This document shows, piece by piece, positions 5,568 through 20,291 of a stretch of DNA of 64,000 nt. The notes under the pieces were generated by a model. That model searched no databases. It was not told the DNA's origin and was given only the letters and a program-made list of their open reading frames with translations. Source of the DNA: Mesorhizobium sp. SARCC-RB16n. Its GTDB lineage: Bacteria > Pseudomonadota > Alphaproteobacteria > Rhizobiales > Rhizobiaceae. The translations under genes and the position numbers were made by a program. The stretch covers positions 1 to 64,000 of the forward strand of contig NZ_ML703301.1 of assembly GCF_008520305.1 (NCBI RefSeq), read 5' to 3'. Each line of letters begins with the position of its first letter. Within the stretch, counting starts at the first letter, position 1.

Positions 5568-5962
5568 TCGCGCAATTCCGGGACCAGCCGACCCAGCGCC
5601 GCCTGATCTTTTGTCTGGCATTCCCAGATCACAAACACACGCCACCCGAGGCCTTTCAGCTCCGCACGCACGCGGGTATCACGCGCCTTGTTGCGCTCCA
5701 GCTTCGGCGTCCAGTAGCCGGCGTTGGATTTCACCGTGCGGCGGCCCGTGCGGCAATGTGGACATCCGTGCCAGAAACAGCCGTGAACGAACACCACCGT
5801 ATAACGCGATCGGAAAACCAGATCAGGCTTTCCGGGCAGCCCGCCTGCATGAAGGCGGTAACGGAGGCCCTGCGCATAGAGAAAACGGCGCACCCGCAGT
5901 TCCGGGACCGTGTCCTTGCCGCGGATTGCGGCCATGTTTCGGCTGCGCACACTATCAGTCAT
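5513..5962 (-). CDS. vsr: Very short patch repair endonuclease (Vsr)
   Basis: Nicks DNA 5' of T:G mismatches that arise when 5-methylcytosine deaminates, starting short-patch repair; Vsr genes normally accompany a cytosine methyltransferase. The N-terminus has the typical RSRNMAAIRGKDT block, the centre GKPDLVF with the catalytic Asp, then VFVHGCFWHGCPHC with the zinc-binding Cys/His residues, and FVIWECQ near the end. About 149 residues, full length. I chose the ATG at 5962 (MTDSVRSRNM) over the upstream Met at 6010. The tail overlaps the convergent NotI-like gene. No dcm-like gene is found in the window, so this vsr is orphaned. Confidence 0.92.
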   Translation of the reverse strand: MTDSVRSRNMAAIRGKDTVPELRVRRFLYAQGLRYRLHAGGLPGKPDLVFRSRYTVVFVHGCFWHGCPHCRTGRRTVKSNAGYWTPKLERNKARDTRVRAELKGLGWRVFVIWECQTKDQAALGRLVPELRDQPSSGSSPCTASGPGPE

Positions 5963-6165
5963 GGATACGTCGCCCTTCCGATGGCATACTTTGGCGGTCT
6001 TCGGTCGCATCGTTTGAGCGTGGGAAGTCGGGCGGGCAACCCCCTTCTTCCCACTAATGAAGACGCAGCATCAACATCTGCGGCATAATCAGGTCTACAG
6101 AGTCTCAATGAACCTCGCTGGTTCACCGGCGGTCTCGTGAAGCCATAGCTCGACGAGTTGCAAAA

Positions 6166-6613
6166 CTAGCATGAGAATGCGATCTCCTGCACCTCAATGG
6201 GCAAGCCGCCGGAAAACAGATAGATGGCGCGATCGGACTCCACGCGTCTGCGGAATATGCTAAGATTAGTGAGGTCTTTCAGAATGTCGTCGGGATGCGC
6301 CCCGGCGTGTTTGATTTCAATGATGGCGTGATTGCCGTTCCAGTCTTCAGGATATGTACCAATAGGTCCGGAACGGTGCTCGAAGCCTGCAAATTGCGCA
6401 GCGCCTCGTGACCTCGCTTGTCGACATCGCCATTAAGGGTGAACGGCGATGTACCTGTCCATCGGGTGCGCAACTGGTGATATAGCTCGTAGCAATAAAC
6501 TCTCTCCCGATAGATTGGTGTTCCACCATGATCGACAGCTTCATAAAACGCGATTCAATTGCGGCTGTCGCGCGCTCCAGGAACGTCGTCAATTCCTGGA
6601 TGCGAACCTCCAT
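6166..6613 (-). pseudogene. PD-(D/E)XK nuclease-like gene with two single-base frameshifts
   Basis: Read across three frames this gives a continuous protein of about 149 residues. It starts MEVRIQELTTFLERA (ATG 6613), jumps frame after MVEH to PIYRERVYCYELYHQL, and jumps again after VPDLLVH to WNGNHAIIEIKHAG, ending at the TAG at 6166-6168. VPDLLVH followed by IIEIK is a PD-(D/E)XK nuclease motif. Both joints fit the loss of one base, the first after CACC near 6523 and the second near 6349. The start lies 18 bases after the stop of the ATPase gene, so the two likely formed one operon. The damage could be real or could be sequencing error; the protein family is not one I can name. Confidence 0.72.
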
Positions 6614-6630
6614 GCAATGCTGATCAAGGT

Positions 6631-8748
6631 TTATTGGATGGGCGGCAGCATGCGAACGCATTCATCAATGACGTACTCGGGGATGCTCTCGAACTTATGC
6701 GGGTTGAGCTGCATCACGTACTCATTTTCGATGTGGTACGATTCATTGATAAATTTCCGGATCACGTCATCGTCGTGTTCGATGTTGAAAATCCGGAACA
6801 GCTGGATTTTCTCATAGCCGACGTCCGTGGCCGCGAATTTGGCGCGGATGGCGTTCACGTCGTTCACCTCAGCGACCAGCGCATCGTAGTTGAACCCTGG
6901 CAGGTGTTCTTTTCGAATGCTTTCCTCTGCTGCCTGCTTCTCCTCCGGGGTCATGTTCCGGTTTTCAGTCGCCGTCTGCAGCGTAGGAACGGCGCGGCCT
7001 TTGAACAGGCTTGCCAGCAGATTGTACTCCACGCCGACTTCATCTCGTAGCTCGTAGTCGCGCCGCAGATAAATGGCCTGCAGGATCGGGTCCTGCAGCG
7101 CGGTGATATTCGCCCTGCAGACTCTGGCAAAGGTCTGGATGTCTTCCCTCACGATCGGCACTTCTTTCACAATACCCCCGCGCGAAGAAAGGAAAGACGC
7201 CGATGGTTTTGCCCCCTGAAACACCTCCTTGGTACTTTTGATAACATCGATGGCGGGCTCGATGTCATGGGTCAGCAAAAGGGTGGTCCGCCCTCTCAGG
7301 CTGGCCTTGCCCTGGAACAGCTCGTGCAGAATGGCAAACTTCTTGTTCTTGTCGAACGACGAAATGGGGTCGTCCAGCACTACCAAGTCCGGGCTTTCGC
7401 TCAGCACCTGGTGCATGAAAAGAACCAGGGCAAAGGCGTTCTTTTCGCCGTAGCTCAGGTGCTTGGACGCAGCTTCCAAGTGACCGGCCAGATCCCGGTG
7501 CACCAGCTTCATTTTGTAGGATTGTTCCTCCGGAACGATCTCGACAACGTACTTGTAGCCGGCGGACCTTAGGAACGTGTTGATGCTGACCTGGTTGGCC
7601 TCTATCGCCTTTTTAATCTTGGCCTTGTGCTTGTTGACCCTTCCGGTCAGGTCGCCAACCTTTGTAAGCAGGTCTTCAAGCTGCGCGTTGACAGGATCTG
7701 TGATGCTCCGGGTCTCCGGGGAATCGAGCTTGTCCATGAGCGCCAGGTCGATCTTCAGCGGGGTGATCTTCTCACTGATCTGGTCCACATCGCGCAGGGA
7801 GAAAAAGGAGATAGCCCGGAGACCTTCCAACTGGGTGATCATGCCGTCGATCTCAGCCTTGAGGCTCGTAAGGAAACTTACCTCGGCGGCGGTTAGGTCA
7901 ATCTTGGTTTTCGTTACCTTCCGCAGGTTCTCGCGGCACTTCTCGCTGAAATATTTGCCAAGCCTTTCGATCACCGCTTTGAGTGTGTTGAGGTGACCCA
8001 CCGCCGTGGCGTCGAATTCCTTCTCGACGGCGAGGGCGGTGTCTTTCTGCCCCTCACCAACGAGCGGAGTGGCGCAATAGGGACAATTGTCGCCCAGCTT
8101 CAGATACTCGTTGCCTTTGATCTGCCAGCCGATCCACTTGGACGGTTCCTGGCTCTTAATGAAAGTCTCGAAGGGCTTCAGCGCCTCGGGAATATTCTCG
8201 GTCTTATTGCCGGTGCCGAAAGCCTTATGAATCTTGCTGTTCTTCGGAATGTTGCCGGGCTTCGATTTGCCGAACGCATCGCGCATTTCCTTGAAGTCGG
8301 AAATAGTCTGTTCGATTTCCGCACTGTTGGTGAGCGTCTGCTTCACACCAGATAGCAGGATGTCGATGGAGTCCATCGCTGCGACATAGTCCGGCGTTTT
8401 GATGAAGATGTCGAAGCTGTTCTTAAGGACTTCGTCTTTCTGGAAAACGAACTGCTGGACGTAGTCATCATCGAAGACAAGCGCGGACGCCATACCGTCT
8501 ATCCCGTGCACAGACGGCAGCGGTGCATCCGCCTTGCCTCGGCTCTTGAATGGCATGAGGTCACCGAGAGTGCCATCTCCGCGAATTTGGCTGACAACAG
8601 CTTTTGCCAAAGTACTTTTGCCAAGGCCGTTGGGCCCATATTTGATATTCAGCGTGCCTTTCAGCACGCTGATTTCGGCACGATCCACACTGTTACAGTT
8701 GCTGATGACAACAGTTAGTTGGGGCACACCAACGTCCTCCGCTTCCAA
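6631..8748 (-). CDS. AAA/ABC-type ATPase, PrrC/RecF-like, defence-associated candidate
   Basis: A 705-residue SMC/RecF-like ATPase, probably a nucleic-acid-sensing motor. Walker A (GPNGLGKST) lies near residue 38, a long helical middle contains a CPYCATPLVGEG knuckle, an ABC signature-like SYGEKNAFALVLF appears in the second half, and Walker B is LVVLDDPISSFD. This layout is shared by the AAA_13 family, to which the anticodon nuclease PrrC belongs, but no PrrC nuclease residues are evident. Downstream by 18 bases lies a broken PD-(D/E)XK nuclease, so the pair resembles ATPase-plus-nuclease phage defence systems such as Septu, though the nuclease type differs. The ATPase itself is uninterrupted. 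The exact activity is unknown. Confidence 0.75.
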   Translation of the reverse strand: MEAEDVGVPQLTVVISNCNSVDRAEISVLKGTLNIKYGPNGLGKSTLAKAVVSQIRGDGTLGDLMPFKSRGKADAPLPSVHGIDGMASALVFDDDYVQQFVFQKDEVLKNSFDIFIKTPDYVAAMDSIDILLSGVKQTLTNSAEIEQTISDFKEMRDAFGKSKPGNIPKNSKIHKAFGTGNKTENIPEALKPFETFIKSQEPSKWIGWQIKGNEYLKLGDNCPYCATPLVGEGQKDTALAVEKEFDATAVGHLNTLKAVIERLGKYFSEKCRENLRKVTKTKIDLTAAEVSFLTSLKAEIDGMITQLEGLRAISFFSLRDVDQISEKITPLKIDLALMDKLDSPETRSITDPVNAQLEDLLTKVGDLTGRVNKHKAKIKKAIEANQVSINTFLRSAGYKYVVEIVPEEQSYKMKLVHRDLAGHLEAASKHLSYGEKNAFALVLFMHQVLSESPDLVVLDDPISSFDKNKKFAILHELFQGKASLRGRTTLLLTHDIEPAIDVIKSTKEVFQGAKPSASFLSSRGGIVKEVPIVREDIQTFARVCRANITALQDPILQAIYLRRDYELRDEVGVEYNLLASLFKGRAVPTLQTATENRNMTPEEKQAAEESIRKEHLPGFNYDALVAEVNDVNAIRAKFAATDVGYEKIQLFRIFNIEHDDDVIRKFINESYHIENEYVMQLNPHKFESIPEYVIDECVRMLPPIQ

Positions 8749-9126
8749 GACGGAGAGACTATGAACCTAAAGCTCCGATTTGCGCGCGGTAGGTAAGCTC
8801 AATCCCCAAGAAAACTCAAAGTTATCAGCGGAGTTGGCGGGTCCGGGACGCTTTCGCGGCTTGGGCGGCTGCTCAGCAATTAATTGCTGGGTGTCCGCTT
8901 CGGGATGCAGCTAGGGCCAGGGGTCAAAATCGACCCATCGACCGTAAGCGATTCGAACGTTTCTTAACGCCAAACGCCGCCATTTCTACGCTTTTTCACC
9001 GATGGGCTATCTCCCGTTCTTCGCACGGCGTGGTTTCGGCGGCTAAAGCGTACTGTGGAGGGCAATCGGCGGTTTTGGCGCACCGAGCGTGACTCGAACT
9101 TCATTCCTTATATCCCCGATTTCAGT
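8749..9126. other. Non-coding stretch with a 16-bp palindrome
   Basis: No convincing reading frame lies between the ATPase start and the scpB stop. It holds a perfect AT-rich palindrome, CAGCAATTAATTGCTG, at 8874-8889, about 125 bases upstream of the ATPase start, which could be an operator for it. Nothing else stands out. Confidence 0.4.
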
Positions 9127-9825
9127 TCATGCCTCTATCTCGAAAGTGGCATCGTCGACCTCTCCGTCTGCCAGTCCCACCGGAATATCACCGGCCAGCA
9201 GCTTTTCCTTCGACAGCAGCCCGGCGTCCTCGAGAGCTTCGAAATCCGGCAGCTGGCGCAGCGTGTCGAGCCCGAACTGCGACAGGAAATTTTTTGTCGT
9301 CACATAGGTATAGGGCGCGCCCGGCTGCGGACTGCGCGGCCCCGAGGCGATGAGGTTCTGCCCCCGCAGCACACCGATCAGGTCGCGTGACACCTCCTTG
9401 CCGAAGAAGGAAGACAGCTCGCCACGCGTGATCGGCTGGAAATAGGCAATGCACATCAAGACGAGCGCCTCGGATTGCGACAGCTCTTTTGTCCCTTGCC
9501 CCGAGGGCATGCCGAAGGCCGCCTGGATGGCGTCGCCAAAGACTTTCTTCGTCCGGTGCTGCCAGCCGCCGGCGACCGACACGAGCTCGTAAGGGCGGCC
9601 GACGAGTTCGGCGCGGATGTCGTCGATGATCAGCTCGAGATTGCAATTCTTCCCCACCACCCGCGCGAGGACACTACGTGTCACCGGTTCGCTGGCGGCA
9701 AAGATCACCGCTTCGACGCGGCCCATCCATTCCCGCCAGCGCAGTTCTGGCGGCAGGTGCTCGAGCTCGGTGTCGACCAGCACAGGCTGTTCGTTCGGCT
9801 TGCGGCGGGCGGACGATTCGCTCAT
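9127..9825 (-). CDS. ScpB-like (kite) protein, plasmid orphan
   Basis: Resembles ScpB, the winged-helix 'kite' subunit that works with kleisin ScpA and the SMC ATPase in chromosome condensation. Typical features are EAVIFAASEPV near residue 37, a first winged helix, then LSQSEALVLMCIAYFQPITRGEL marking the second winged helix, and YTYVTTKNFLSQFGLDTLRQLP. Length is 232 residues, with an acidic C-terminal tail. It begins two bases after the stop of the DUF1403 gene and must be translated with it. Neither scpA nor smc occurs in the window, so it either borrows chromosomal partners or works with DUF1403. Confidence 0.85.
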   Translation of the reverse strand: MSESSARRKPNEQPVLVDTELEHLPPELRWREWMGRVEAVIFAASEPVTRSVLARVVGKNCNLELIIDDIRAELVGRPYELVSVAGGWQHRTKKVFGDAIQAAFGMPSGQGTKELSQSEALVLMCIAYFQPITRGELSSFFGKEVSRDLIGVLRGQNLIASGPRSPQPGAPYTYVTTKNFLSQFGLDTLRQLPDFEALEDAGLLSKEKLLAGDIPVGLADGEVDDATFEIEA

Positions 9826-9827
9826 CG

Positions 9828-10781
9828 CTACAACCCAAACAGCCGAAAGGTGGTGCGGCCCGACAGCTCACGCACCGCATCGAGCTGTTGCAGCCGCTCG
9901 AATAGGCGCCGTGCCGCAAACCGCGACAGGTTCTTTGTCACGAGCGAGCCGGAAACGGCATCTTCATTCAGGAGCAAAAAAATCACGTCGCCGGCGCCTT
10001 TCGCGCGCAGTTTCGGCGCCACCGCTAGCAGTCTTTCGGCGCGGCGCGACAACTCGCCGCCCAGCCGGCAGGCTTCCGCCGCCGCTTGAACCAGCGCAAC
10101 GCAGACCGCCCGCTCAAAATTCTTTTCGCCCGGCCGGATTCTTTTGCCTCCACTTTCGGAGCGGAAGGTCGGCGAAAAAACCTGGGTCACCAAGAACGGC
10201 AGCGGCCGCGGCCAGCGCAGGCTTTGCGCCAGCACCAGGTCGGCGAGCCACCAGGCCAAAAGCTCGGAGTCGGGCCGCGTCGCGACGATATGAGCGGCAA
10301 TCGCCGCGGCGGCGAATGGTGCCGAGCGACGCGACGTAGCCAGATGTTCGATTTGCGTGCAGAGGTCGGCGAGCGCCGCGCCGTCCCAGTGGAGACCAAG
10401 CTGGTCGACGATCTTTTCGAGCCTGTCGGCGTGGGCGATGGGCGGATGGGCGGCCAACTGCCGCCAGGCGCCCAAAATGGCGCCGGCGGGGCCGGGATCG
10501 GCGCCGGCCGGGCGCAGCAGCCAGGCATCGCGCAGGGCGGCTTCGTCCTCTGAGCGGCCCACGAGACGCATGCTGGCGGCAGCACTCTTCAGCGCCTGGC
10601 GCTGGCGCCAGGCGCCGGCCCAGCTGGCTTGTGTGCGGGTAAGCGTGTCCAGCGTCGCCAGCGCGGCGCCGGCCTGGAAGGCGGCGTCAGCGTCGCTCGA
10701 CGCGCCGCCGGCCGCAAGCGCCCAGGCCGGCACGGTGGGCGGCGCGGCGGGGTTGGCGGTCGCGGGATCGAGGCGAATCAT
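9828..10781 (-). CDS. DUF1403 family protein
   Basis: A 317-residue, Ala/Arg-rich, probably all-helical protein that I assign to DUF1403, a family seen mostly on rhizobial plasmids. Near residue 60 is the block WRQRQALKSAAASMRLVGR followed by DEAALRDAW, the most recognisable stretch. The last 50 residues (NLSRFAARRLFERLQQL to the end) look like a winged helix. No enzymatic motif is visible. The stop is followed two bases later by the scpB start, which indicates translational coupling. By analogy with kleisin-kite gene pairs it might serve as a kleisin-like partner of ScpB, but that is inference. A long AT-rich inverted repeat lies 75 bases upstream. Confidence 0.75.
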   Translation of the reverse strand: MIRLDPATANPAAPPTVPAWALAAGGASSDADAAFQAGAALATLDTLTRTQASWAGAWRQRQALKSAAASMRLVGRSEDEAALRDAWLLRPAGADPGPAGAILGAWRQLAAHPPIAHADRLEKIVDQLGLHWDGAALADLCTQIEHLATSRRSAPFAAAAIAAHIVATRPDSELLAWWLADLVLAQSLRWPRPLPFLVTQVFSPTFRSESGGKRIRPGEKNFERAVCVALVQAAAEACRLGGELSRRAERLLAVAPKLRAKGAGDVIFLLLNEDAVSGSLVTKNLSRFAARRLFERLQQLDAVRELSGRTTFRLFGL

Positions 10782-10855
10782 GCTTTCGAGGGTAAATCGC
10801 GCGTGCGCTTTTCGCCATCATTTTCGCGTTAAAACGCACAGCCTGTCGCACGTCT

Positions 10856-10890
10856 AAAACGAATGATAATGTTGCATTATCGTTCGTTTT
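10856..10890. repeat. 35-bp AT-rich inverted repeat upstream of DUF1403-scpB
   Basis: Arms AAAACGAATGATAATG and CATTATCGTTCGTTTT are complementary except for one base and are separated by TTG. The element lies 75 bases before the DUF1403 start. Symmetry and size fit an operator or a core site for the nearby tyrosine recombinase. A smaller symmetric element, GCGTT-AA-AACGC, lies at 10826-10837. Confidence 0.6.
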
Positions 10891-11014
10891 GTTCTCTATA
10901 GGAGAAATGGCCGTTTTTATCGAGCAAAAGCCTGAATTTCACCCCCAGCGACCGTCCGGACCATCCCACAGCACAGGATCGGAAGCCGCGGTGTCGGCCG
11001 ATCGGGTGCGCTCG

Positions 11015-11542
11015 TCACAGGTGCCCGCTTGCCCTAAGGGTTGCGGCAAAGGTCGCCAGCGGAGAGACGAGGGTCAGCGGACGATCCTCCAGCGGCTCTG
11101 CTCCATAACCGCCATACCATCGGGCGGCCCGCTCGTTCTTGGCGTCGATGATGATCAGCACGCCGCCAACCGCGTCCGCGACCCGGATGCAGCGCAGCGC
11201 GGCCGCGAGCAGAAGCTGGCCACCAAGCCCCCTGCCCGCGACGGATTTGTCCACGGCCAGACGCGCCAGCAGAAAACTCGGCACATTGTGACGCGCCAGG
11301 CCCTTGATCATCGCGGCAGGAACGGCGGCGTGGTCGACCGAAGCCGGCGCCAGGCTGTAGAAGCCCAGGACCCTGTTCGGCGCATCGTCGGCAACCGCGC
11401 AGAACGTCTTGACGGCGTTCTGCTCATGCCCCTGGCGCGCATAGCGCTGTACGAAGGTATTCATCTGCGCATCGCCGCAGTCGAATGCCTTGCGATCATG
11501 AGCCTTGGCGATCGGCTCTTCGTGCCAGGACGGCAGCGTCAC
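11015..11542 (-). CDS. GNAT acetyltransferase toxin (TacT-like)
   Basis: Predicted toxin that acetylates charged aminoacyl-tRNA, as TacT and AtaT do. It shows the family opening (two halves of a GNAT fold, with FDCGDAQMNTFVQRYARQ near residue 20), the acetyl-CoA loop VAGRGLGGQLL and the end DAKNERAARWYGGYGAEPL. Length is 175 residues. It starts with GTG in a 4-base GTGA overlap with the antitoxin stop, a classical TA arrangement with antitoxin first. The last residues (FAATLRASGHL) may not be family sequence. It sits between DUF1403 and the integrase and is intact by reading frame. Confidence 0.88.
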   Translation of the reverse strand: MTLPSWHEEPIAKAHDRKAFDCGDAQMNTFVQRYARQGHEQNAVKTFCAVADDAPNRVLGFYSLAPASVDHAAVPAAMIKGLARHNVPSFLLARLAVDKSVAGRGLGGQLLLAAALRCIRVADAVGGVLIIIDAKNERAARWYGGYGAEPLEDRPLTLVSPLATFAATLRASGHL

Positions 11543-11817
11543 AGGTTCTTGGGCAGCCCTGCCGCAGCCCTGCGCAATTTCTCATTCGGCTTGGGCGGGT
11601 TGTCGAGGAGTGCGAGAATGCGGCTGAAATCACGCTCCGAAACCTTGATGGTGTCGGCTTCGGCGAGCACGGATTCCGCCTCGCGCAAGGCCGATTGGGT
11701 CACGAAGCTGGTGAGATCGGTATGGCGAAGGGCAGCTGCCCGCAGCAGGCGTGCTTTCACCTCCGGCTTAACCCGGATGTTCATCCGATCGGTATCGTCA
11801 AGGGCAGCGCGGGGCAT
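11539..11817 (-). CDS. DUF1778 ribbon-helix-helix antitoxin
   Basis: A 92-residue antitoxin that would neutralise the GNAT toxin and repress the pair. RMNIRVKPEVKARLLRAAAL is the ribbon and first helix; DLTSFVTQSALREAESVL completes the RHH, and the C-terminal part (SERDFSRILALLDNPPKPNEKL) is the toxin-binding arm of TacA-type antitoxins. I chose the ATG at 11817 because the frame continues upstream to 12027 with no family sequence and would overlap the integrase. It overlaps the toxin by 4 bases. A 12-bp palindrome (11879-11890) upstream may be its operator. Confidence 0.87.
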   Translation of the reverse strand: MPRAALDDTDRMNIRVKPEVKARLLRAAALRHTDLTSFVTQSALREAESVLAEADTIKVSERDFSRILALLDNPPKPNEKLRRAAAGLPKNL

Positions 11818-11878
11818 GGGCTCGGTCTCGATTCTGTGTCCGAGCTCTAGATACAGCTGACGGTCCAGATTTTCAATA

Positions 11879-11890
11879 CAATGCGCATTG
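11879..11890. promoter_or_regulatory. 12-bp palindrome between antitoxin and integrase
   Basis: CAATGCGCATTG is a perfect palindrome in the 97-bp gap between the divergent antitoxin (starts 11817) and integrase (starts 11915). RHH antitoxins bind short palindromes near their own promoter, so it is a candidate operator that might also affect the integrase. It overlaps a possible TTG integrase start at 11888. Confidence 0.4.
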
Positions 11891-11914
11891 AATGCGTACA
11901 GGAATGGCAACAGT

Positions 11915-13030
11915 ATGGAAGCCGACGAAGACGATCTTCCCGACATCATCGATGTGGTGATGGAGATGGGCCGCGTGTCGCAGGAGCGGTCAACCGAAGC
12001 CCCCTCCCCTCTCCCGGCCGTGGCCAATCCGAGGCTGCCGGCGCATCTCGACGCGTTGGCCGGCCGTGCCCGCGACTATGTCGAGGCGGCAAGCTCGGCC
12101 AATACCCGTCGCGCCTACGCTTCCGACTGGAAGCAGTTTGCCAGCTGGTGCCGACGCCAGGGTTTTTCGCTCTTGCCGCCCGATCCACAAACCGTGGGGC
12201 TATACATCACGGCGCTCGCCTCCGGCAGTGCCTTAGGCACGGCCTCAGGGGACAAAAAATCCGTATCGACGATCGAGCGTCGGCTTTCCTCGCTGACCTG
12301 GAATTATGCGCAACGCGGCCAGCCGCTCGACAGGAAGGACCGCCACATCGCCACCGTCATGGCCGGCATCCGCAACAAGCACGCAGCCCCGCCCCGGCAG
12401 AAGGAGGCGGTGTTGCCCGAGGATCTGATCGCCATGCTGGAAACGCTCGACCGCGGCACCCTGCGCGGCCTGCGGGACCGGGCAATGCTGCTCATTGGTT
12501 TTGCCGGCGGCCTGCGCCGCTCGGAGGTCGTCGGCCTCGATGTTTCGCGCGACCAGACCGAGGATTCTTCCGGCTGGATCGAAATCCTCGACAAGGGCAT
12601 GCTGGTGCGGCTGCGCGGCAAGACCGGCTGGCGCGAGGTCGAAGTTGGGCGCGGCTCGTCCGATGCGAGCTGCCCGGTCGTGGCGCTGCAGACCTGGCTC
12701 AAGCTTGCCCGTATCGCCCACGGTCCGCTTTTTCGTCGGGTGACAGGGCAAGGCAAAAAAGTCGGAGCCGACCGGCTCAACGACCAGGAGGTCGCCCGCC
12801 TGGTCAAACGCACCGCGCTGGCGGCCGGCGTGCGTGGAGATCTGCCGGAGGGCGAACGCGGCATGATGTTTGCCGGCCACTCGTTGCGCGCCGGCTTGGC
12901 GTCCTCGGCCGAGGTCGACGAACGCTATGTCCAGAAGCAGCTTGGTCATGCCTCGGCCGAAATGACCCGCAAATACCAGCGCCGCCGCGATCGCTTCCGT
13001 GTCAATCTCACCAAGGCGAGCGGACTGTAG
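11915..13030 (+). CDS. Tyrosine recombinase/integrase
   Basis: Site-specific recombinase of the XerC/D-like tyrosine family, cutting and rejoining DNA through a 3'-phosphotyrosine. The N-terminal core-binding domain includes SSANTRRAYASDWKQFASWC; the catalytic domain shows Arg I in GGLRRSEVVGL, the H-x-x-R box in FAGHSLRAGLASS, then QLGHASAEMTRKYQRR carrying the second His and the nucleophilic Tyr. About 371 residues. The ATG at 11915 is preferred, with a TTG at 11888 as alternative. It diverges from the GNAT-RHH pair and from DUF1403-scpB. Two decayed relatives lie at 13868-13935 and 15050-15972. Its target site is unknown; the inverted repeat at 10856 is a candidate. Confidence 0.9.
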   Translation: MEADEDDLPDIIDVVMEMGRVSQERSTEAPSPLPAVANPRLPAHLDALAGRARDYVEAASSANTRRAYASDWKQFASWCRRQGFSLLPPDPQTVGLYITALASGSALGTASGDKKSVSTIERRLSSLTWNYAQRGQPLDRKDRHIATVMAGIRNKHAAPPRQKEAVLPEDLIAMLETLDRGTLRGLRDRAMLLIGFAGGLRRSEVVGLDVSRDQTEDSSGWIEILDKGMLVRLRGKTGWREVEVGRGSSDASCPVVALQTWLKLARIAHGPLFRRVTGQGKKVGADRLNDQEVARLVKRTALAAGVRGDLPEGERGMMFAGHSLRAGLASSAEVDERYVQKQLGHASAEMTRKYQRRRDRFRVNLTKASGL

Positions 13031-13091
13031 GGACAATTGGCTCCCTCCCCTCCCCTGCCCGACCACAAGACCGTACGTCCGGACCGTTCGC

Positions 13092-13496
13092 TCAGCGGTT
13101 CGGGGTGATCAGTTTCAATGATGGAAAATAGGTGCGATAGCGGCCGATGTCGCGGGTCAACAGCGGCAGCCCGTCGACGGCGGCATGGGCGCCAATGAAG
13201 AAGTCGGGTAGCACGCCGGTGCGCGATCCGCCCGACTTGCGATATTGCGTGAATACCTTTCCAGCAAGAAACAGGGCAGCGCGCGGCATCGGAGCGAGTT
13301 CGAGACCCGCCTCATCGATAACCGCGTCGAGATCCTCAATGCGCTCATATCGAACGGCAAGCTCGGCATAGACTGCGTCGTTGATCAGTAGAGGCCCGTC
13401 GAGGCTCGCCGCCTCAAGCTGACCGATCGACCAATCCGCCCACTTCGGATCATCGGTGACAAGGTCGAGCAGAACGTTGGTGTCGACCAGCGTCAC
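13092..13496 (-). CDS. vapC: PIN-domain ribonuclease toxin VapC
   Basis: Mg-dependent endoribonuclease toxin. The PIN fold starts LVDTNVLLDLVTDD with the first catalytic Asp; an acidic residue in NDAVYAELAVRYE and the Asp pair in VLPDFFIGAHA and LLTRDIGRYRTYFP complete the active site. Length is 134 residues. The start is GTG in a 4-base GTGA overlap with the VapB stop. It is convergent with the integrase, with 61 bases between their ends. Confidence 0.9.
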   Translation of the reverse strand: MTLVDTNVLLDLVTDDPKWADWSIGQLEAASLDGPLLINDAVYAELAVRYERIEDLDAVIDEAGLELAPMPRAALFLAGKVFTQYRKSGGSRTGVLPDFFIGAHAAVDGLPLLTRDIGRYRTYFPSLKLITPNR

Positions 13497-13726
13497 GCTT
13501 CGCCACGCGTCAATGCCATGATCGCGTTTGTGTCGAGCCCCTTGCCGGCATGACCCCGCAATTTCGCGAAGCGGCTCGCCGGCTGCTTTTTGTCAGAGCG
13601 CGCAAGCACCACACTGCCATCGGCCGCACGGCGGAAATCAACCTTGCTGCCGGGAATAATACCGAGAAGATCGCGGACGGGCTTCGGGATGGTCACCTGG
13701 CCCTTGGCTGTGACTGTCGTAGCCAT
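13493..13726 (-). CDS. vapB: AbrB/MazE-type antitoxin VapB
   Basis: Antitoxin of the SpoVT/AbrB swapped-hairpin class that masks VapC and represses the operon. TVTAKGQVTIPKPVRDLLGI is the DNA-binding hairpin; SKVDFRRAADGSVVLAR completes it, and the C-terminal 30 residues (RFAKLRGHAGKGLD) would bind the toxin. Length is 77 residues. The start at 13726 is 11 bases inside a promoter-proximal inverted repeat (13738-13765), which fits autoregulation. Confidence 0.9.
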   Translation of the reverse strand: MATTVTAKGQVTIPKPVRDLLGIIPGSKVDFRRAADGSVVLARSDKKQPASRFAKLRGHAGKGLDTNAIMALTRGEA

Positions 13727-13737
13727 GTTTCACCTTT

Positions 13738-13765
13738 GTAATACCGGACATACAGTAGGTATTAC
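13738..13765. promoter_or_regulatory. Inverted repeat, likely VapB operator
   Basis: Perfect 8-bp arms GTAATACC and GGTATTAC are separated by 12 bases, directly upstream of vapB. VapB/AbrB-type antitoxins bind such inverted repeats at their own promoters. The spacing places one face on each helical turn. Confidence 0.6.
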
Positions 13766-13867
13766 TCCAGGCGTTAAATTTCAATCCCAAGCTAATCGAA
13801 ATCACCAAAGAGCGCAGCGGCCTATACGCGCGGGACTCGCCGCCGCTGGCGAACTGACGAAAGGCGA

Positions 13868-13935
13868 ATGACGCGCGAAGACCAGGGCCGGCACGATCGT
13901 TCCGCGTCAGTTTCATCAAGGCGAACGGATTGTAG
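13868..13935 (+). pseudogene. Integrase C-terminal remnant
   Basis: Sixty-eight bases match the last 22 codons of the integrase at 11915: MTREDQGRHDR, a one-base shift, then FRVSFIKANGL and a stop at 13933-13935. The intact gene ends MTRKYQRRRDRFRVNLTKASGL. The catalytic Tyr is lost. It marks a former third integrase copy. Confidence 0.65.
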
Positions 13936-14021
13936 AAGAAAAGGCTCCTCCCCCTTATTCAGTCAGGCCGGCACCAAATTGGCATGGGCGCCGAAGTCCA
14001 ACAGCTGTTCGCCACCGAGCC

Positions 14022-14540
14022 CTACCGCCAGGACAACTGGTCTTTCGGCAATCGTCCACTCGGGTCGAACACCGTCACCTTATGCGGCGGTGACGGACCC
14101 CAGTCCCAAAGCACGAGGTTGCGATCGTCTGTCTCGGCGCCTGGTGCAAAGCTCGGCACCAGAATGCCCGCAATACCCTGGGATCGCAGCCGGTCGTAGA
14201 CGGACCAGGACGCCGGGCGCTCTCCGTCGCTGAGCGCCGTCGCCCAGGCGCAGGCCATGTCCTCGAGCGCGATAGAAAATTCTCCCCTCGCCTCGTCTGT
14301 TGTCAGATCCACGATGTCATCGCAGTCGATCTCATAGGAACACAGCACGCAAGGATCGATCCGGTGCGCGAACCCCTGGTTGGCTTCCTTGACCGCTGTC
14401 ATGATGGTCAGCGCCAGATAGAGCGCCGGCACGCCTTTGGGATTAAATCGCGCACCTCTGATCGCCGCCCCTTCGCCGGAAGTCGGCTTGAATGCCCAAC
14501 GTGGATCGTGTGCCCGGTAGCAGGTCCCAACGAACCTCAA
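14022..14540 (-). CDS. RES-domain toxin (NAD-degrading/ADP-ribosyl type)
   Basis: RES-domain toxins deplete NAD+ or modify it, as MbcT does. The family pattern is visible: CYRAHDPRWAFKPTSGEGAA, then GARFNPKGVPALYLAL with the Arg of the RES motif, a conserved Glu in TAVKEAN, and VYDRLRSQGIAGILVPSFA with the final Ser. Length is 172 residues. The frame begins with TTG overlapping the antitoxin stop by 4 bases. The gene is intact and lies between two integrase remnants. Confidence 0.85.
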   Translation of the reverse strand: MRFVGTCYRAHDPRWAFKPTSGEGAAIRGARFNPKGVPALYLALTIMTAVKEANQGFAHRIDPCVLCSYEIDCDDIVDLTTDEARGEFSIALEDMACAWATALSDGERPASWSVYDRLRSQGIAGILVPSFAPGAETDDRNLVLWDWGPSPPHKVTVFDPSGRLPKDQLSWR

Positions 14541-14935
14541 GCGAAACCACCAACGGCCATGTGATCGAGATAGTCACGGACCGCAGCGGCCTTGCCGTCC
14601 TTCACCAGCGCTTCAGCAGTGCGTCCGCCAAATGCTGGAAGCGGCTGAGCTCGATACCAAGCCATCGCCTGCTCCTTGCCGCCCGCCCAATCCGTCACAC
14701 GACTGATGATCTCAAGCATTTCCCGCAGACGCCCCTGTGTCTTCACCGTAGCGCTGCGCTCTGAGCGATAGAGGGTCTCGCGAGCAAGACCGGCGGTCTG
14801 GGCCAACTGGCCCTTGGACATGCCAAAACCGTCCGCAACCTGCTCGATCGCAATCTTCCCGTTCCGGTCCATATAGGACAAGATGAGAGGTCCATTCTGC
14901 TCGGGGACCTTGAGTGCATGGGCCACAGAATTCAT
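14537..14935 (-). CDS. Xre/MbcA/ParS-type antitoxin (DUF2384)
   Basis: Antitoxin partner of the RES toxin. An HTH of the Xre class (SKGQLAQTAGLARETLYRS) lies in the middle, and the C-terminal MbcA/ParS domain contains EMLEIISRVTDWAGGKEQAMAWYRAQPLP and GRTAEALVKDGKAAAVRDYLDHMAVGGFA, the part that plugs the toxin site. I chose the ATG at 14935 (MNSVAHALKV); an earlier Met at 14968 is possible. Its stop overlaps the toxin start. Confidence 0.86.
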   Translation of the reverse strand: MNSVAHALKVPEQNGPLILSYMDRNGKIAIEQVADGFGMSKGQLAQTAGLARETLYRSERSATVKTQGRLREMLEIISRVTDWAGGKEQAMAWYRAQPLPAFGGRTAEALVKDGKAAAVRDYLDHMAVGGFA

Positions 14936-15049
14936 CCTACCATACTGAGAGTCATATTTCTTGTGCAAAAGATATGGCAGTTCTCGACACCTTTCAAGTC
15001 CAGGACCGAGCTATTCAAGCTGCTGCCACCGCCCCAGCCCGCACGAGGA

Positions 15050-15972
15050 TCAAGCCGACCGTGCGCGCGCTTATGTCGAAGCAGCGCGTTCCGCAAACAC
15101 CCGTCGCGCCATGCCGCCAACTGCAAGCATTTTTTGAGCCCGTGCCGGCGTCAGCCGTTTGGTTCGCAGCCGCCAGACCCGCAGATCGTCGGCCTCTACA
15201 TCAACGCATAGGCTTCGAGCAGTGGAAGGGACACAAAGGCGGTGGCGACGACAGAGCGCCGCCTGTCATCCCTAACCTGGAACTACACGCAGCGCGGCCC
15301 ATCGCTTGACCGGAAGGACCGTCATATCGCCACCGTGCTCGCCCCGTCAGAAGGAAGCTGTGCTGCGCGACGATCTTGTTGCCATGCAGAAGACGCTCGA
15401 CCGCAGCACGCTGCGCGGCCTGCGTGACCGCGCCATGCTGCTTTGGGCTTCGCAGGCGGCCTGTGCCGCTCCGAAATCGTCGGCCTCGATCTTGGCCGCG
15501 ATCAAACTGAAAATGGCCGCGGGTGGGTCGAGATGCTTGACAAATTGTTCTTGTGACGCTGCGCGGCAAGGCCGGCTGGCGCGAGGTCGAGATCGGCCGC
15601 GGTTCGTCCGCGCCACCTGCCCAGTTGTCGCGCTCGAGATTGGCTGAGGTTTGCCCGCATCGTCGCATGGCCCCTCGTTCCGCCGTGTTACTGGCCAGGG
15701 TAAACGGTCGGCGTCGATCGGCTCAACGATCAGGAGGTGGCCCGGTTGGTCAAGCGCACGGCCTTGGCCGCCGGAGTGCGCGGCGATCACTTCGCGAGCG
15801 AGCGGGGCCAGAAGTTTTCGGCCATTCGCTGCGCAAGCCTCGCTTCCTCCGCGGAGGTTAATCAACCTATGTGCAGAAGCAGCTTGGCCACGTCTCGGCG
15901 GGGATGACACGCAAGTATCAGCGACGGCGCGACCGCTTCCGGGTCAATCTCACCAAGGCGTCCGGGCTCTGA
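15050..15972 (+). pseudogene. Decayed tyrosine integrase, relative of 11915-13030
   Basis: Pieces in several frames follow the intact integrase from near residue 55 to the end. ARAYVEAARSANTRRA occurs at about 15060, ERRLSSLTWNYTQRG at 15254, LDRKDRHIATV at 15305, LRGKAGWREVEIGRGSS at 15557, and the last codons NLTKASGL run into the TGA at 15970-15972. Multiple indels and stops break it, and there is no N-terminal start. It is a degenerate second copy that, with the 13868 remnant, brackets the RES-Xre pair. Confidence 0.88.
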
Positions 15973-16480
15973 AACCCCTCTCTTTTGCTTGGTTGGGGTG
16001 GCTGTGCGACGGGTAGCTTTGCGTATCGGAAGCAGGAAGTAGAAGCGACAGCGGCTTCGCTAGCTGCGAGCGAGCCTCTTCGTCGAGGTGGTCTCACCGA
16101 GACGCGGCTTGGCATCGGTTCGGGAACCATCTTCACGACTCTAGGCAACGAGTGCTGTTCACATTTTCGTCTGGTGAGCGAACTCGATACCATTACTCCA
16201 TCCGCGCACTTGGCGTTTATCGCGAGGCAACTGGCTGATGAGCGCTGCCCCCTCTCCTCCGACGAGCTATCACCTCCTTCGCTTCGCGTCTTCAAGGGAG
16301 GTGAAAGACAACATGGCCGCTTTACAATGTCGGGCCAACACGCGGTCGAGTTTGATCTGCAGATACACGTCACAAGCTCAATGTCGTGATCCCTTGCCAG
16401 GCACCGGTGCGGAGCGCCTAAGGAAGTCGAAGAACTGGGCATGACGCTTGGGTAAGCAGGATTTGTGCTTGGATGGTAGG
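15973..16480. other. Non-coding stretch before the rep region
   Basis: Open frames on both strands here have no recognisable domains and look like GC-driven chance frames. I see no repeats or terminators of note. The rep-associated sites begin at 16482. Confidence 0.35.
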
Positions 16481-16481
16481 C

Positions 16482-16495
16482 TTGTCCGCTGACAA
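16482..16495. promoter_or_regulatory. parS: parS-like site 1, upstream of repA
   Basis: TTGTCCGCTGACAA matches the core TT-NN-C-N-GC-N-G-NN-AA of the palindromic RepB-binding parS consensus of repABC plasmids. The outermost bases of the full consensus (G and C) are C and A here. It lies 187 bp before repA. A near-identical site follows repA. Confidence 0.72.
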
Positions 16496-16586
16496 AATCG
16501 CCGAATTGTGCAGCATATTCAGATGCATGAAACATATTATTGAGCTATGTTCTGCGACCCTTAAGCTTTTGTTAACTTTAAATTTC

Positions 16587-16614: not shown

Positions 16615-16668
16615 GACGGTTGCTTGGCGCTTTTACGTCAAAAATCGTTTTTAGAGAGTCCCGATCGA

Positions 16669-17877
16669 ATGAACGTGAACTCGCCCGTTCCTACAAAAAT
16701 CCCGCTGCTGTTCGAGAAAAGCATCCTCGATCAGGGCGACCAGATATCGAAGAAGTTGCACCTGCTTTCGATGCAGCGCTTCCCTCCCCACGCGAAGAAA
16801 AATCTTCGTTCGTTCTCTCTGGCGGAGGTTGCCACGTATCTGGGGGTTTCCCAGAGCCATTTGAAGAAACTGCATCTTGAAGGAAAGGGACCGGTGCCTG
16901 AAACCTCGACGTCGGGCAGACGCTCGTACACTGCTGAGCAGATGCTTGAGCTGCGGCAGTATCTGGACCAGTACGGTCGATCTGACGCCCGCATGTATGT
17001 TCCCCATCGGCGGCCGAGCGAGAAGCTTCAGATTTTAGCTGTGGTTAATTTCAAGGGGGGCAGCGGGAAGACCACTACCGCTGCCCACCTCGCCCAATAC
17101 CTTGCGCTTACCGGGCACCGTGTCCTAGCGGTCGATCTCGATCCGCAGGCGTCGCTTTCTTCATTGCATGGGTTCCAGCCTGAACTCGACCAGACGAAAT
17201 CGCTTTACGACGCGATTCGTTATGACGACGAGAGGGTGCCTCTCTCCGAGATCATCAAGCCGACGAATTTCCCGGGCTTAGAGATCGTCCCAGCGAACCT
17301 AGAGCTGCAGGAATTCGAATACGACACGCCTCTGGCAATGACAGACAAGTCTTCCAATGTGGGCAGGGCGTTTTTCACGCGCATCTCGAAGGCATTAATG
17401 GAGGTCGACGATCGCTACGATGTCATAGTTATCGATTGTCCGCCGCAGCTTGGCTACCTGACGATCACCGCACTGACCGCGGCGACTTCAGTGTTGATCA
17501 CGATCCATCCGCAGATGCTCGATGTGATGAGCATGGGCCAGTTTCTGCTGATGCTCGGGAACATCCTGGAGCCGATCAGAGCGGCCGGTGCCGAGGTGAA
17601 TCTGGAGTGGTATCGCTACCTAGTTACTCGATTCGAACCTACGGATCAGCCGCAAGCGCAGATGGTCGCATTCCTGCATACGCTTTTCGGCGAATTCATC
17701 CTCAAGAACCAGATGCTGAAATCAACGGCGATTTCCGATGCGGGGATTACCAAGCAGACACTCTACGAAGTCGAAAAGAATGCGATGACCCGGTCCACAT
17801 ACGAGCGGGCAATGGAAGCCTTGGACGTCGTTAATGGCGAAATCGTAGCTTTGATTCATGAAGCATGGGGGCGCTGA
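16669..17877 (+). CDS. repA: Plasmid partitioning protein RepA (ParA ATPase)
   Basis: Walker-type ATPase that positions plasmid copies together with RepB and represses the repABC operon. An N-terminal HTH (FSLAEVATYLGVSQSHLKKLHLEG) precedes the deviant Walker A loop FKGGSGKTTTAAHLAQYLA, Walker A' VDLDPQASLSS and Walker B VIVIDCPPQLGYLT. About 402 residues from the ATG at 16669, which has an AGAG-containing ribosome site; a TTG start at 16624 is possible. repB follows after 68 bp that contain a parS-like site. It is the first gene of the replicon operon. Confidence 0.96.
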   Translation: MNVNSPVPTKIPLLFEKSILDQGDQISKKLHLLSMQRFPPHAKKNLRSFSLAEVATYLGVSQSHLKKLHLEGKGPVPETSTSGRRSYTAEQMLELRQYLDQYGRSDARMYVPHRRPSEKLQILAVVNFKGGSGKTTTAAHLAQYLALTGHRVLAVDLDPQASLSSLHGFQPELDQTKSLYDAIRYDDERVPLSEIIKPTNFPGLEIVPANLELQEFEYDTPLAMTDKSSNVGRAFFTRISKALMEVDDRYDVIVIDCPPQLGYLTITALTAATSVLITIHPQMLDVMSMGQFLLMLGNILEPIRAAGAEVNLEWYRYLVTRFEPTDQPQAQMVAFLHTLFGEFILKNQMLKSTAISDAGITKQTLYEVEKNAMTRSTYERAMEALDVVNGEIVALIHEAWGR

Positions 17878-17878
17878 C

Positions 17879-17892
17879 TTGTCTGCTGACAA
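17879..17892. promoter_or_regulatory. parS: parS-like site 2, between repA and repB
   Basis: TTGTCTGCTGACAA differs by one base from the site at 16482 and begins one base after the repA stop codon. The repA-repB gap is a known place for parS in repABC plasmids. Two such sites flanking repA suggest that RepB coats this region. Confidence 0.75.
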
Positions 17893-17945
17893 AAGTGCAC
17901 CTTTTCCAAATGTATTCAACGGCCTACGATCCCTGGAGGTAGGAT

Positions 17946-18932
17946 ATGGCACGTAAGAATCTTCTTGCAGGCCTCATAGAAGCGGAAACCGGCGAGCGGG
18001 AGTCATCTGCCGCAGCTGCGGCATATCCGATTCGCGGAGCGTCAAAATCCATGATCCGCTCGGTCAACGAGTTGGCAAAGCAAGCGGATGCTTATCTTGA
18101 GGGCGAGCATGTCGTGGAACTCGACCCAAGCGCAGTCGACGGCTCGTTCGTTTCCGACCGCATGGGCGACGACCAGGAGCAGTACCAAGAGCTGCTGGAA
18201 GCGATTCGGGATAGGGGGCAGGATTCTCCCATACTTGTCCGTCCGCATCCGAACTCCGACGGCCGCTACATGATTGTCTTCGGCCATCGCAGGGTTCGGG
18301 TTGCTCGTGAGCTGGGACGCAAGGTGAGGGCGGTCGTCAAGGAGATCGACGACAGGACCCATGTAATTGCCCAAGGTCAGGAGAATTCCGCTCGGGCAAA
18401 CCTTAGCTTCATCGAGAAGGCGATGTTCGCAAAGCGCCTTGAGGATTTGGGATACGACAGAGATGTTATCTCGTCAGCATTGGCCTCGAACGCCGCAGCG
18501 GTCTCGAAGATGGTGTCAGTTGTCACAAGAATTCCGGCATTTGTGATTGGCAAGATTGGATCAGCTACGTCTGTAGGCCGCGAGCGGTGGGTTGAGCTGT
18601 CTCTGCTCGCCGGCAAGAAAGCCGATATGGTTAATGCGATCTTGTCCGAACCAGAATTTGGTGCGTTGGAGAGCAACGAGCGCTTCGCAAGGTTGCTGGC
18701 AGCCCTGAATGCGAAGGGGAAGCCGGTTCGCAAGGCGGCTGCGAAGTCCCAAGCACAATCTTGGATCCCTGAGGACAAAGCAGTTTGCGTCAGCGTCAAG
18801 AAGGCAGGCAAAGCCATTACGATCGCCGTAAAGGAGACGGACGGCAGTCGCTTTGGGACGTGGATTTCCGATAATCTGGGCAACCTTTATGAGGCGTTCA
18901 GAAAGTCAGAGAAGACAACAACAGGAGACTGA
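17946..18932 (+). CDS. repB: Plasmid partitioning protein RepB (ParB family)
   Basis: Centromere-binding protein acting with RepA. The ParB/Srx nuclease-like domain shows DSPILVRPHPNSDGRYMIVFGHRRVR with the GHRR motif, then VIAQGQENSARANLSFIEKAMFA, and an HTH region rich in small residues (SSALASNAAAVSKMVSVV) that would read parS. Length is 328 residues, normal for the family. A strong ribosome site (GGAGG) stands 8 bases before the ATG. repC follows after a 153-bp gap with an antisense RNA. Confidence 0.96.
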   Translation: MARKNLLAGLIEAETGERESSAAAAAYPIRGASKSMIRSVNELAKQADAYLEGEHVVELDPSAVDGSFVSDRMGDDQEQYQELLEAIRDRGQDSPILVRPHPNSDGRYMIVFGHRRVRVARELGRKVRAVVKEIDDRTHVIAQGQENSARANLSFIEKAMFAKRLEDLGYDRDVISSALASNAAAVSKMVSVVTRIPAFVIGKIGSATSVGRERWVELSLLAGKKADMVNAILSEPEFGALESNERFARLLAALNAKGKPVRKAAAKSQAQSWIPEDKAVCVSVKKAGKAITIAVKETDGSRFGTWISDNLGNLYEAFRKSEKTTTGD

Positions 18933-18940
18933 AACCGCAA

Positions 18941-18992
18941 AAGAAAAAGGCCCCCGAACGTCACCGTCGCGGAAGCCCTTCTCGTCTGTCGC
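18941..18992 (-). ncRNA. Antisense RNA (ctRNA/incA) between repB and repC
   Basis: repABC plasmids carry a small counter-transcribed RNA here that limits RepC synthesis and sets incompatibility. On the minus strand a TTGACA box (19022-19027) and GATTCT (18999-19004), 17 bases apart, precede a short transcript that ends in a hairpin. The stem arms are at 18970-18980 and 18946-18956, 11 pairs with three G-U, followed by a T-rich run. The predicted transcript is about 50 bases, start near 18992. Position, promoter and terminator all agree with known ctRNAs. Confidence 0.8.
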
Positions 18993-18998
18993 AAGCTG

Positions 18999-19027
18999 AG
19001 AATCGCATTTCCCCGAATCACTGTCAA
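18999..19027 (-). promoter_or_regulatory. Promoter of the repABC antisense RNA
   Basis: Consensus -35 TTGACA, a 17-base spacer and the weaker -10 GATTCT on the minus strand. It faces repB and drives the antisense RNA. Confidence 0.72.
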
Positions 19028-19085
19028 GAGTCGTGGCGCCGTTTTGGCGAGCAGATTTCTTTTGCCTAATCGAGGGTGAAAGAAA

Positions 19086-20291
19086 ATGGAGACGGGTATT
19101 GCAACGACGCCCTTTGGGCGGCGGCCGATGTCGCTTGCCATGTTGGCAGCGCAAACCGAGTCACGTGAGATTCCCAAGGGCAGGGTCATCGACAAGTGGC
19201 AGATCTACCGCAACCTCTGCGAAGGCAAGAGCATCGTCGGCATCGGCGATCGTGCTCTGGCCGTCCTGAATGCGTTGCTATCGTTCTATCCTGATAGTGA
19301 GTTGTGTCAGGAAAACGACCTCGTCGTCTTTCCCTCGAACGCTCAGCTGTCCCTCAGGGCACACGGAATGCCTGATGCCACGCTCAGGCGGCACCTGGCG
19401 GCTCTTGTGGACTGCGGGCTGATCATTCGTCGGGATAGCCCGAACGGCAAGCGTTACGCCCGCAAAGGCAGAGGAGGGGAGATCGAGGAAGCATTTGGCT
19501 TCTCCCTGGCACCGCTGCTGGCCCGGACTTACGAGTTCGACGCGGCCGCCGAACGCGTGCGCGCCGACACCAGGGCGCTAAGGCTTATGCGCGAGCGGAT
19601 CACGTTGCACCGCCGTGACATCCACAAGCTGATAGAGGCGGCCCTTGACGAAGATGTCCCAGGCGACTGGGGAGGCCTTTGGAAACGCTTCCGCGACATT
19701 GTGGAGGCAATTCCGCGCCGCGCCTGCATTGCCGAGCTTGAGCCAATCGTCGCGGATCTAGCGGGGCTCCACGACGAAGTGGATAAGCTGCTGGGGATGC
19801 ATATGAAATCCACAAAACCGAGCGGCAATGACCTTCAAAACGAGCGGCAGCAATCTGAATCAAATACCGACTCTATTTTTGAATTTGAACCTGCTTTAGA
19901 GAAAAGCGGGGCGACGGCCGAGCCCAGGACGAGGACCGCAGAGGCGCCGAAAACATACCCGCTGGGGATGGTGCTGAAGGCCTGCCCCGAAATTGCGGAT
20001 TATGCCGTCGACGGGATCGGCAATTGGCGCGATCTCATGATAACGGCCGCCCAGGTGCGGGGATATCTGGGCGTTTCGCCGTCAGCGTATGAGGAGGCTT
20101 GCCATGTGATGGGCCAGGAGATCGCGGCGATCGTGATTGCCTGCATCCTGCAAAGGGCGCAGCACATCAACTCGGCCGGCGGCTATTTGCGGGTACTGAC
20201 CGAAAAGGCGACGGCAGGGCAGTTCTCTGTGGGGCCGATGCTCATGGCGGCGCTCAAGGCGAACGGGGCGACGGTGAGGATGACGGGATGA
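19086..20291 (+). CDS. repC: Replication initiator RepC
   Basis: Initiator protein that binds the origin; in repABC plasmids the origin lies inside repC itself, and I infer the same here. The opening TTPFGRRPMSLAMLAAQ and the winged-helix segment HGMPDATLRRHLAALVDCGLIIRRDSPNGKRYARK are diagnostic, as is the C-terminal block DLMITAAQVRGYLGVSP and GYLRVLTEKA. Length is 401 residues. The ribosome site is GAGGGTGAAAG before the ATG. The leader overlaps the target of the antisense RNA. Intact, so the replicon is probably functional. Confidence 0.96.
   Translation: METGIATTPFGRRPMSLAMLAAQTESREIPKGRVIDKWQIYRNLCEGKSIVGIGDRALAVLNALLSFYPDSELCQENDLVVFPSNAQLSLRAHGMPDATLRRHLAALVDCGLIIRRDSPNGKRYARKGRGGEIEEAFGFSLAPLLARTYEFDAAAERVRADTRALRLMRERITLHRRDIHKLIEAALDEDVPGDWGGLWKRFRDIVEAIPRRACIAELEPIVADLAGLHDEVDKLLGMHMKSTKPSGNDLQNERQQSESNTDSIFEFEPALEKSGATAEPRTRTAEAPKTYPLGMVLKACPEIADYAVDGIGNWRDLMITAAQVRGYLGVSPSAYEEACHVMGQEIAAIVIACILQRAQHINSAGGYLRVLTEKATAGQFSVGPMLMAALKANGATVRMTG

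Follow-up and report, generated by a model that had tools for sequence, protein, structure and literature searches.

A plasmid module of DUF1403, an orphan ScpB and a divergent tyrosine recombinase beside a dif-like palindrome

A 64,000-nucleotide stretch of Mesorhizobium sp. SARCC-RB16n DNA (contig NZ_ML703301.1, positions 1 to 64,000; hereafter the window) raises the question of what a single condensin subunit does beside the replication genes of a plasmid. A ScpB-type kite protein of 232 amino acids (9127..9825, minus strand) is encoded there directly after a DUF1403 protein (9828..10781, minus strand), and a tyrosine recombinase is encoded at 11888..13030 on the plus strand. All three family assignments of the initial annotation were confirmed by Pfam (108.6 bits for PF04079, 362.4 bits for PF07183 and 51.6 bits for PF00589, respectively), and the 2-nucleotide gap between the ScpB and DUF1403 genes is real. 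ScpB does stand without ScpA, as five ScpA queries returned no match in the window; SMC received no separate search. The recombinase had been described as lying opposite the pair: it is indeed divergent, but in the window it is not adjacent, since genes for a TacA-like antitoxin and a GNAT acetyltransferase (11015-11865) intervene. The set was also correctly placed near repABC (16624..20264, plus strand), with repA at 16624 and repB at 17946 identified by NCBIfam (TIGR03453 and TIGR03454) and a RepC-like sequence at 19086-20264 by tblastn (48%).

The analysis of sequences and structural models revealed an obligate DUF1403-ScpB pair, a divergent recombinase, two DNA elements (site I and element II), a predicted fold for DUF1403 and a parallel arrangement built on ScpA. 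With moderate confidence, the module is interpreted as a plasmid-maintenance unit built on site-specific recombination, in which the recombinase would use site I, DUF1403 would use element II, and ScpB would provide a link to SMC.

The gene set occurs far beyond chance. Among 72,556 plasmid records, DUF1403 was found by tblastn in 699 and ScpB in 762, the latter count taking in some chromosomal-type genes. A survey for co-occurrence, as had been proposed initially, showed that the three-gene linkage is conserved in Hyphomicrobiales and Rhodobacterales, often beside repABC. ScpB followed DUF1403 directly in 80 of 80 genome loci, which are the best 80 of at least 561 relatives and lean to Mesorhizobium, and when plasmid records and the window were included, the pair was intact in 95 of 96 loci under a strict distance rule. 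In each of 12 genomes a single ScpA was present, next to one high-scoring chromosomal ScpB, and together the genomes yielded 23 further ScpB matches. For 18 of these the locus was fetched; 17 scored over the family cutoff and all 17 had DUF1403 just upstream, and the eighteenth was below the cutoff and had no DUF1403 upstream. Of 112 fetched pairs, among which some loci are represented twice, 99 had an identical frame offset between DUF1403 and ScpB, a regularity compatible with translational coupling. Judged by gene order, the DUF1403-ScpB pair is obligate. In an even draw of the class the family was rare, with matches in 4 of 385 genomes, 3 of them over the cutoff and one being the centre itself, and on viral contigs DUF1403 was encoded by none of eight pattern matches. 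The best-ranked plasmid match to the window was Mesorhizobium huakuii pMHa, which carries the same gene set and covers 57% of 8900-20400 at 88% identity.

ScpB is a member of the SMC_ScpB (kite) family, well above the PF04079 cutoff of 27.4 bits, and a profile of alignment A2 matched ScpB chains in the PDB at E 1e-28. Its score for the NCBIfam equivalog TIGR00281 (SMC-Scp complex subunit) was 69.8 bits, below the cutoff of 89.2. The plasmid proteins share a conserved N-terminal LPxELRWREWM segment in the alignment. In a tree, a branch with supports of 100/99 separated 71 plasmid ScpB rows from 13 of chromosomal type and one from Gluconobacter, a grouping whose meaning is limited by midpoint rooting and long branches. 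ScpA was not matched in any of the 96 module loci. The plasmid location, together with differences, seen by eye, from chromosomal ScpB in segments that are conserved among the chromosomal proteins, would fit a counter-defence decoy, in which the pair supplies a kite protein that poisons SMC-like plasmid defence (Wadjet, MksBEFG). This seems very improbable: the tie to the recombinase and site I would stay unexplained, and the pair also occurs in a Devosia genomic island, where evading plasmid defence would seem less useful. ScpB, DUF1403 and the recombinase gave no PADLOC matches at E 0.01, Jet and Mks models included, although evasion itself is not probed by PADLOC.

For DUF1403, Pfam returned only PF07183 and a weak HTH_13 match (E 0.0094), and a sequence search of the PDB yielded no relatives at E 1. 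The predicted structure is a Fic fold, which matched Fic proteins with a C-terminal winged helix over 279 of 317 residues. The model thus resembles SoFic, 3eqx and 3zcn in joining a Fic fold to a C-terminal winged helix, here at about residues 263-317. It differs from SoFic-type proteins in lacking the Fic motif, and in a comparison of profiles with genuine Fic proteins only the winged helix aligned, with 4% probability. The motif HxFx(D/E)GN was absent from all 71 DUF1403 sequences and present in three of three annotated Fic proteins of related plasmids; a looser G[NK][GK]R was seen in one of the 71. DUF1403 is probably a catalytically dead Fic-fold protein that binds DNA by its winged helix. 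Of the kleisin-like C-terminus proposed initially, the winged helix stands, on the HTH_13 match and the model, but the kleisin likeness does not, given the Fic fold. As a kleisin, DUF1403 was rejected on its predicted fold and the absence of a match to the ScpA profile PF02616, and a role as kleisin-like partner of ScpB is not supported. It could still be argued that ScpB and DUF1403 form an alternative SMC complex with DUF1403 as substitute kleisin, considering its modelled winged helix and the partner swap in genomes, where chromosomal ScpB stands with ScpA and plasmid ScpB with DUF1403; this is considered improbable. On pTiKerr27 (L015), a 357-amino-acid frame matched the DUF1403 profile at 73200-73352, below the cutoff and confined to its C-terminal part (260-312); we take the frame to be a possible member of the DUF1612/HTH_13 family.

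The recombinase scored above the PF00589 cutoff (27.1 bits) for its catalytic domain and below the cutoff for the SAM-like domain PF02899 (20.1 versus 22.3 bits), and no arm-binding domain was matched in Pfam. A SAM-like and a catalytic domain without an arm domain is the build of Xer and Cre enzymes. The catalytic residues R, K, HxxR, H and Y were recognized by eye in the translation, and the true start may be the ATG at 11915. The scores stayed below the NCBIfam XerC/XerD cutoffs (TIGR02224, 56.0 versus 335.15 bits; TIGR02225, 59.3 versus 329.6 bits). Among the 83 loci with at least 3 kb of upstream sequence, a recombinase was present within 3 kb in 47 and was divergent in all of them; a rep gene lay within the fetched stretch in 42 of the 83, and 38 of these 42 also had the recombinase. 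By these counts the recombinase is a frequent, not an obligate, partner of the pair. A similar tyrosine recombinase is present in the window as a decayed second copy at 14970-15969, just before repA (tblastn, 49%). A serine recombinase gene is often found beside the tyrosine recombinase, or upstream of the pair where the tyrosine recombinase is lacking (L002, L004, L005, L008, L019, L057, L061, L076, L082 and L094). Whole or partial Tn402-like tniABQ genes repeatedly adjoin the module (L003, L005, L006, L020, L143, L145 and L146; L020 by gene clustering), either upstream of site I or just past ScpB. Tn402-like elements are termed res site hunters in abstracts, and their presence would fit a recombination site at the module.

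Such a candidate site was found by aligning the divergent intergenic regions. Site I (10856..10890, unstranded; example CGTCCGATAATGCAAGATTATCGGACG) is a palindrome that lies about 100 bp ahead of the DUF1403 start; its core, GATAAT-N5-ATTATC, occupies 10865-10881, and the palindrome is probably the core site of the tyrosine recombinase. Its outer arms covary, TCC pairing with GGA and AAC with GTT. With two inverted arms around a centre of 6-8 bp and a recombinase gene beside it, it was classed as dif-like, which makes the segregation or dimer-resolution role suggested in the initial annotation plausible. When up to 3 of 12 mismatches were allowed, site I was detected in 51 of the 52 loci that have a recombinase near and in 27 of the 39 that lack one (Fisher p 1e-4), the latter a rough figure as some of the 39 loci were scanned from an internal match; random windows from the same loci gave 107 of 1820. 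The sole recombinase-bearing locus without a match (L142) has a like palindrome farther upstream, as judged by eye, and the 27 matches in recombinase-less loci include weak ones (L022 and L058). The exact pattern matched 38 times, in 18 of 20 genomes that had been selected for carrying the pair, and the reversed control gave no match. Thirty matches were inspected; 24 lay before DUF1403, 3 were next to a recombinase only, 1 was close to RepC and 2 had none of the genes sought beside them.

Element II is an inverted repeat (GTGCGNTTT-N19-AAANCGCAC; 10803..10839, unstranded) and a probable operator. It lies 58 bp upstream of the DUF1403 start in the window and mostly 55-60 bp upstream in relatives, where it takes the form GTGCGGTTT-N19-AAACCGCAC. 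At up to 5 of 18 mismatches it was detected in 56 of 62 chosen loci, compared to 4.8% of 620 control windows. The locus groups for this and for the flank comparison below were hand-picked after inspection, whereas the counts given above for site I and for the recombinase cover all eligible loci. Element II was found in 37 of 42 loci with palindrome and recombinase, in 9 of 10 with the palindrome and a new left flank, and in 10 of 10 without the palindrome. As element II stays in every class, the two elements are separable, II going with the DUF1403-ScpB operon and I mainly with the recombinase.

This separation bears on another explanation, in which DUF1403 and ScpB are an independent, self-regulated maintenance or regulatory pair of winged-helix proteins that acts without SMC, palindrome I is a second operator, and the recombinase is a mere companion. 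We regard it as possible but less probable. Its strength lies in the 39 of 91 loci in which a divergent recombinase is absent within 2.6 kb (a few have one farther off behind an insertion), and in the constant spacing of about 100 bp that separates site I from the DUF1403 start. Against it, site I is missing mainly from loci without the recombinase (12 of 39 versus 1 of 52), and element II is kept; for three of the 12 (L042, L052 and L074) the scan started from an internal match, and the site is in fact present in L052.

The recombinase-less loci often retain both palindrome arms and have lost the flank beyond. In 11 of them, left-flank identity to the consensus was 0.21, which is chance level, at -60..-21 and 0.52 at -20..-1, and right-flank identity was 0.86 at +1..+20 and 0.88 at +21..+60. 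Such a break in similarity at site I is what a crossover at the site would leave, and the retention of an operator, as in an independent regulatory pair, could produce it as well. In Rhizobium herbae, the left similarity to relatives stops shortly past the neighbouring MFS gene, and no right border was found. The left flank in Mesorhizobium G404 holds a 5S rRNA gene, and the next 127 kb contained no left-flank repeats and no matches to the two recombinases tested. The matches obtained there were mostly to the 5S rRNA stretch of this flank, and no empty site was read from them. Scans of two sets of loci for nearby tRNA genes found one in 1 of 24 (L081) and in 0 of 10. The recombinase-less loci can at most be considered candidate integrated elements.

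Under the plasmid-maintenance reading, the Xer-like recombinase would act at palindrome I, between its own gene and the divergent DUF1403-ScpB operon. Recombination there would most likely resolve multimers, and might occasionally fuse replicons or integrate them. The winged helix of DUF1403 would bind DNA, most likely the inverted repeat II beside site I, and from this position DUF1403 could both control the operon and mark the site. ScpB would be delivered at the site and connect the host SMC-ScpA condensin, which it might load, hold or clear, with either the plasmid or the recombination complex. This last step leans on XerD of Bacillus subtilis, which is named as a sequence-specific SMC unloader in a passage of PMC12322038 citing Karaboja 2021.

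Several observations weigh against this mechanism. The pair occurs without site I in some loci, and in some genomes (G009 and G397) without a recombinase match at E 1e-40. For the recombinase-less loci, a right border and a second site were sought and none were found, and no reciprocal junction was present among the 30 sites inspected. Prediction of DUF1403 and ScpB as a fused chain (pTM 0.64, 5 paired rows of 105) gave no confident arrangement, so that contact was neither shown nor excluded. The pair of Devosia sp. Root436 is situated close to the left end of a tRNA-Arg island of about 21 kb, which has imperfect 46-bp repeats (82.6%) and a different, arm-type integrase at its far end; site I is not an end of this island. 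With the pair at the left end and the integrase at the right, a circular form would again put the pair beside an integrase. Moreover, six archaeal ScpB homologues do not bind ScpA, and one of them aligns well with a MarR-family DNA-binding protein, according to an excerpt of PMC7055376. A lone ScpB therefore need not act with SMC, which makes a non-SMC role of the pair a serious rival. The Devosia island (L231 and L232) also holds a PRTase-CE gene and an ORC-CDC6-like gene, possibly a conflict system.

A parallel arrangement was found in Acetobacteraceae. A chromosomal ScpA query matched only 90 of the 72,556 plasmid records. In 7 of 9 Acetobacteraceae plasmid loci, an annotated tyrosine recombinase directly precedes an unnamed protein of 200-260 amino acids (family X), and ScpA follows family X in 6 of these 7, Rhodovastum being the exception. 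The modules are at 7965-11178 (L007), 5284-7783 (L253), 5253-7798 (L254), 5227-7777 (L258), 278-2783 (L261) and 1815-7282 (L262). In Komagataeibacter, the gene ahead of ScpA is annotated as transposase, as are X matches in other Komagataeibacter records, and a recombinase is divergent upstream; in Lichenicola, X precedes a ScpA match that spans two hypothetical genes, and no recombinase is annotated. Family X, which was matched in 50 records, has no Pfam match over the cutoff, and the Gluconobacter member is unrelated to DUF1403. The plasmids of Gluconobacter sphaericus and Acetobacter aceti also carry ScpB. The four Acetobacteraceae recombinases compared were 29-36% identical to that of the window. 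A palindrome with inner RTAA-N6/7-TTAY, or a near form, lies upstream in 7 of 9 loci (1.7 kb upstream in Roseomonas L253); 3 of the 7 are exact GATAA-N6/7-TTATC, compared to 0.04 expected by shuffling, and the other 4 were chosen, with no separate control, as the best palindrome in 900 bp. Here palindromes of similar inner sequence stand before recombinases without a DUF1403 gene in the vicinity, which argues against palindrome I as simply a second operator of the pair. Related recombinases and similar palindromes beside both indicate that orphan ScpB and orphan ScpA each came to such places. Tentatively, single condensin subunits may have been captured repeatedly by plasmids, apparently ScpB together with DUF1403 in Hyphomicrobiales and Rhodobacterales and ScpA together with family X in Acetobacteraceae, and coupled at dif-like sites to Xer-like recombinases, as stations for recombinase-directed SMC loading, unloading or alignment. 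Toxin-antitoxin genes and RepA are often found near the sets of recombinase, X and orphan ScpA. One plasmid of P. aeruginosa and one of Xanthomonas gave ScpA matches as well, but no recombinase is annotated in those stretches and the matches were not assigned to this module.

Other genes of the window lie outside the core module. The GNAT acetyltransferase (TacT-like; 11015..11542, minus strand; PF13508 at 25.1 bits, below the cutoff of 27) lies between site I and the recombinase, and is overlapped by the gene for the TacA1-like antitoxin (11539..11865, minus strand; PF08681 at 86.7 bits). In several relatives no gene separates DUF1403 from the divergent recombinase. The region between module and repABC (11015-14968) contains toxin-antitoxin-like genes, namely GNAT/TacA, a PIN-domain gene (13092-13496) and others; open reading frames at 14022-14968 resemble RES and Xre genes by eye, and such genes are annotated at the matching place on the relative L260. 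On the other side, a 705-amino-acid AAA_13 ATPase (6631-8748, minus strand) matched the PADLOC candidate defence model PDC-S06 at 951 bits, and a Vsr-type nicking endonuclease (5513-6010, minus strand; PADLOC 91.8 bits) overlaps the end of a 356-amino-acid open reading frame (4497-5567).

Many bacteria of soil and marine habitats carry the module on large plasmids, and it probably aids plasmid survival at cell division. If the proposal is correct, multimer resolution and condensin would be joined in one compact unit, the orphan ScpB on hundreds of plasmids would be explained, and whether tyrosine recombinases generally talk to SMC could be tested on small replicons. For DUF1403, a predicted fold is now available, along with a partner gene and a probable DNA target. 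In the literature searched, which covered few subscription journals, nothing was found on DUF1403, on ScpB with repABC, or joining condensin, plasmid, Wadjet and dimer resolution, and no description of a recombinase-directed SMC station on plasmids was found. Titles and abstracts on plasmid ScpB with an integrase, on plasmid ScpA with a tyrosine recombinase, on repABC multimer resolution and on orphan or plasmid ScpB included none about the module.

Compared with the Smc-ScpAB condensin, the module has a ScpB of the same SMC_ScpB family, but it comes without an ScpA match in the 96 loci, groups apart from chromosomal ScpB and misses the equivalog cutoff. As with XerD of B. subtilis, a tyrosine recombinase would be tied functionally to SMC; there the tie was shown experimentally, whereas here the link to ScpB or ScpA is one of gene neighbourhood. 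A streptococcal cluster of xerD-like, scpA and scpB genes is presumably a further precedent. XerCD/dif and the plasmid cer and psi sites are multimer resolution systems. The module differs from XerCD in a recombinase that falls below the XerC/XerD cutoffs and in having a Fic-fold and a kite protein as companions, and its site, with inner GATAA/TTATC and a 7-bp centre, differs from dif (CATAA-N6-TTATG). With these systems it shares a simple tyrosine recombinase without an arm domain, a location on plasmids, an inverted-repeat core site with inner ATAA/TTAT and accessory DNA-binding proteins beside the core.

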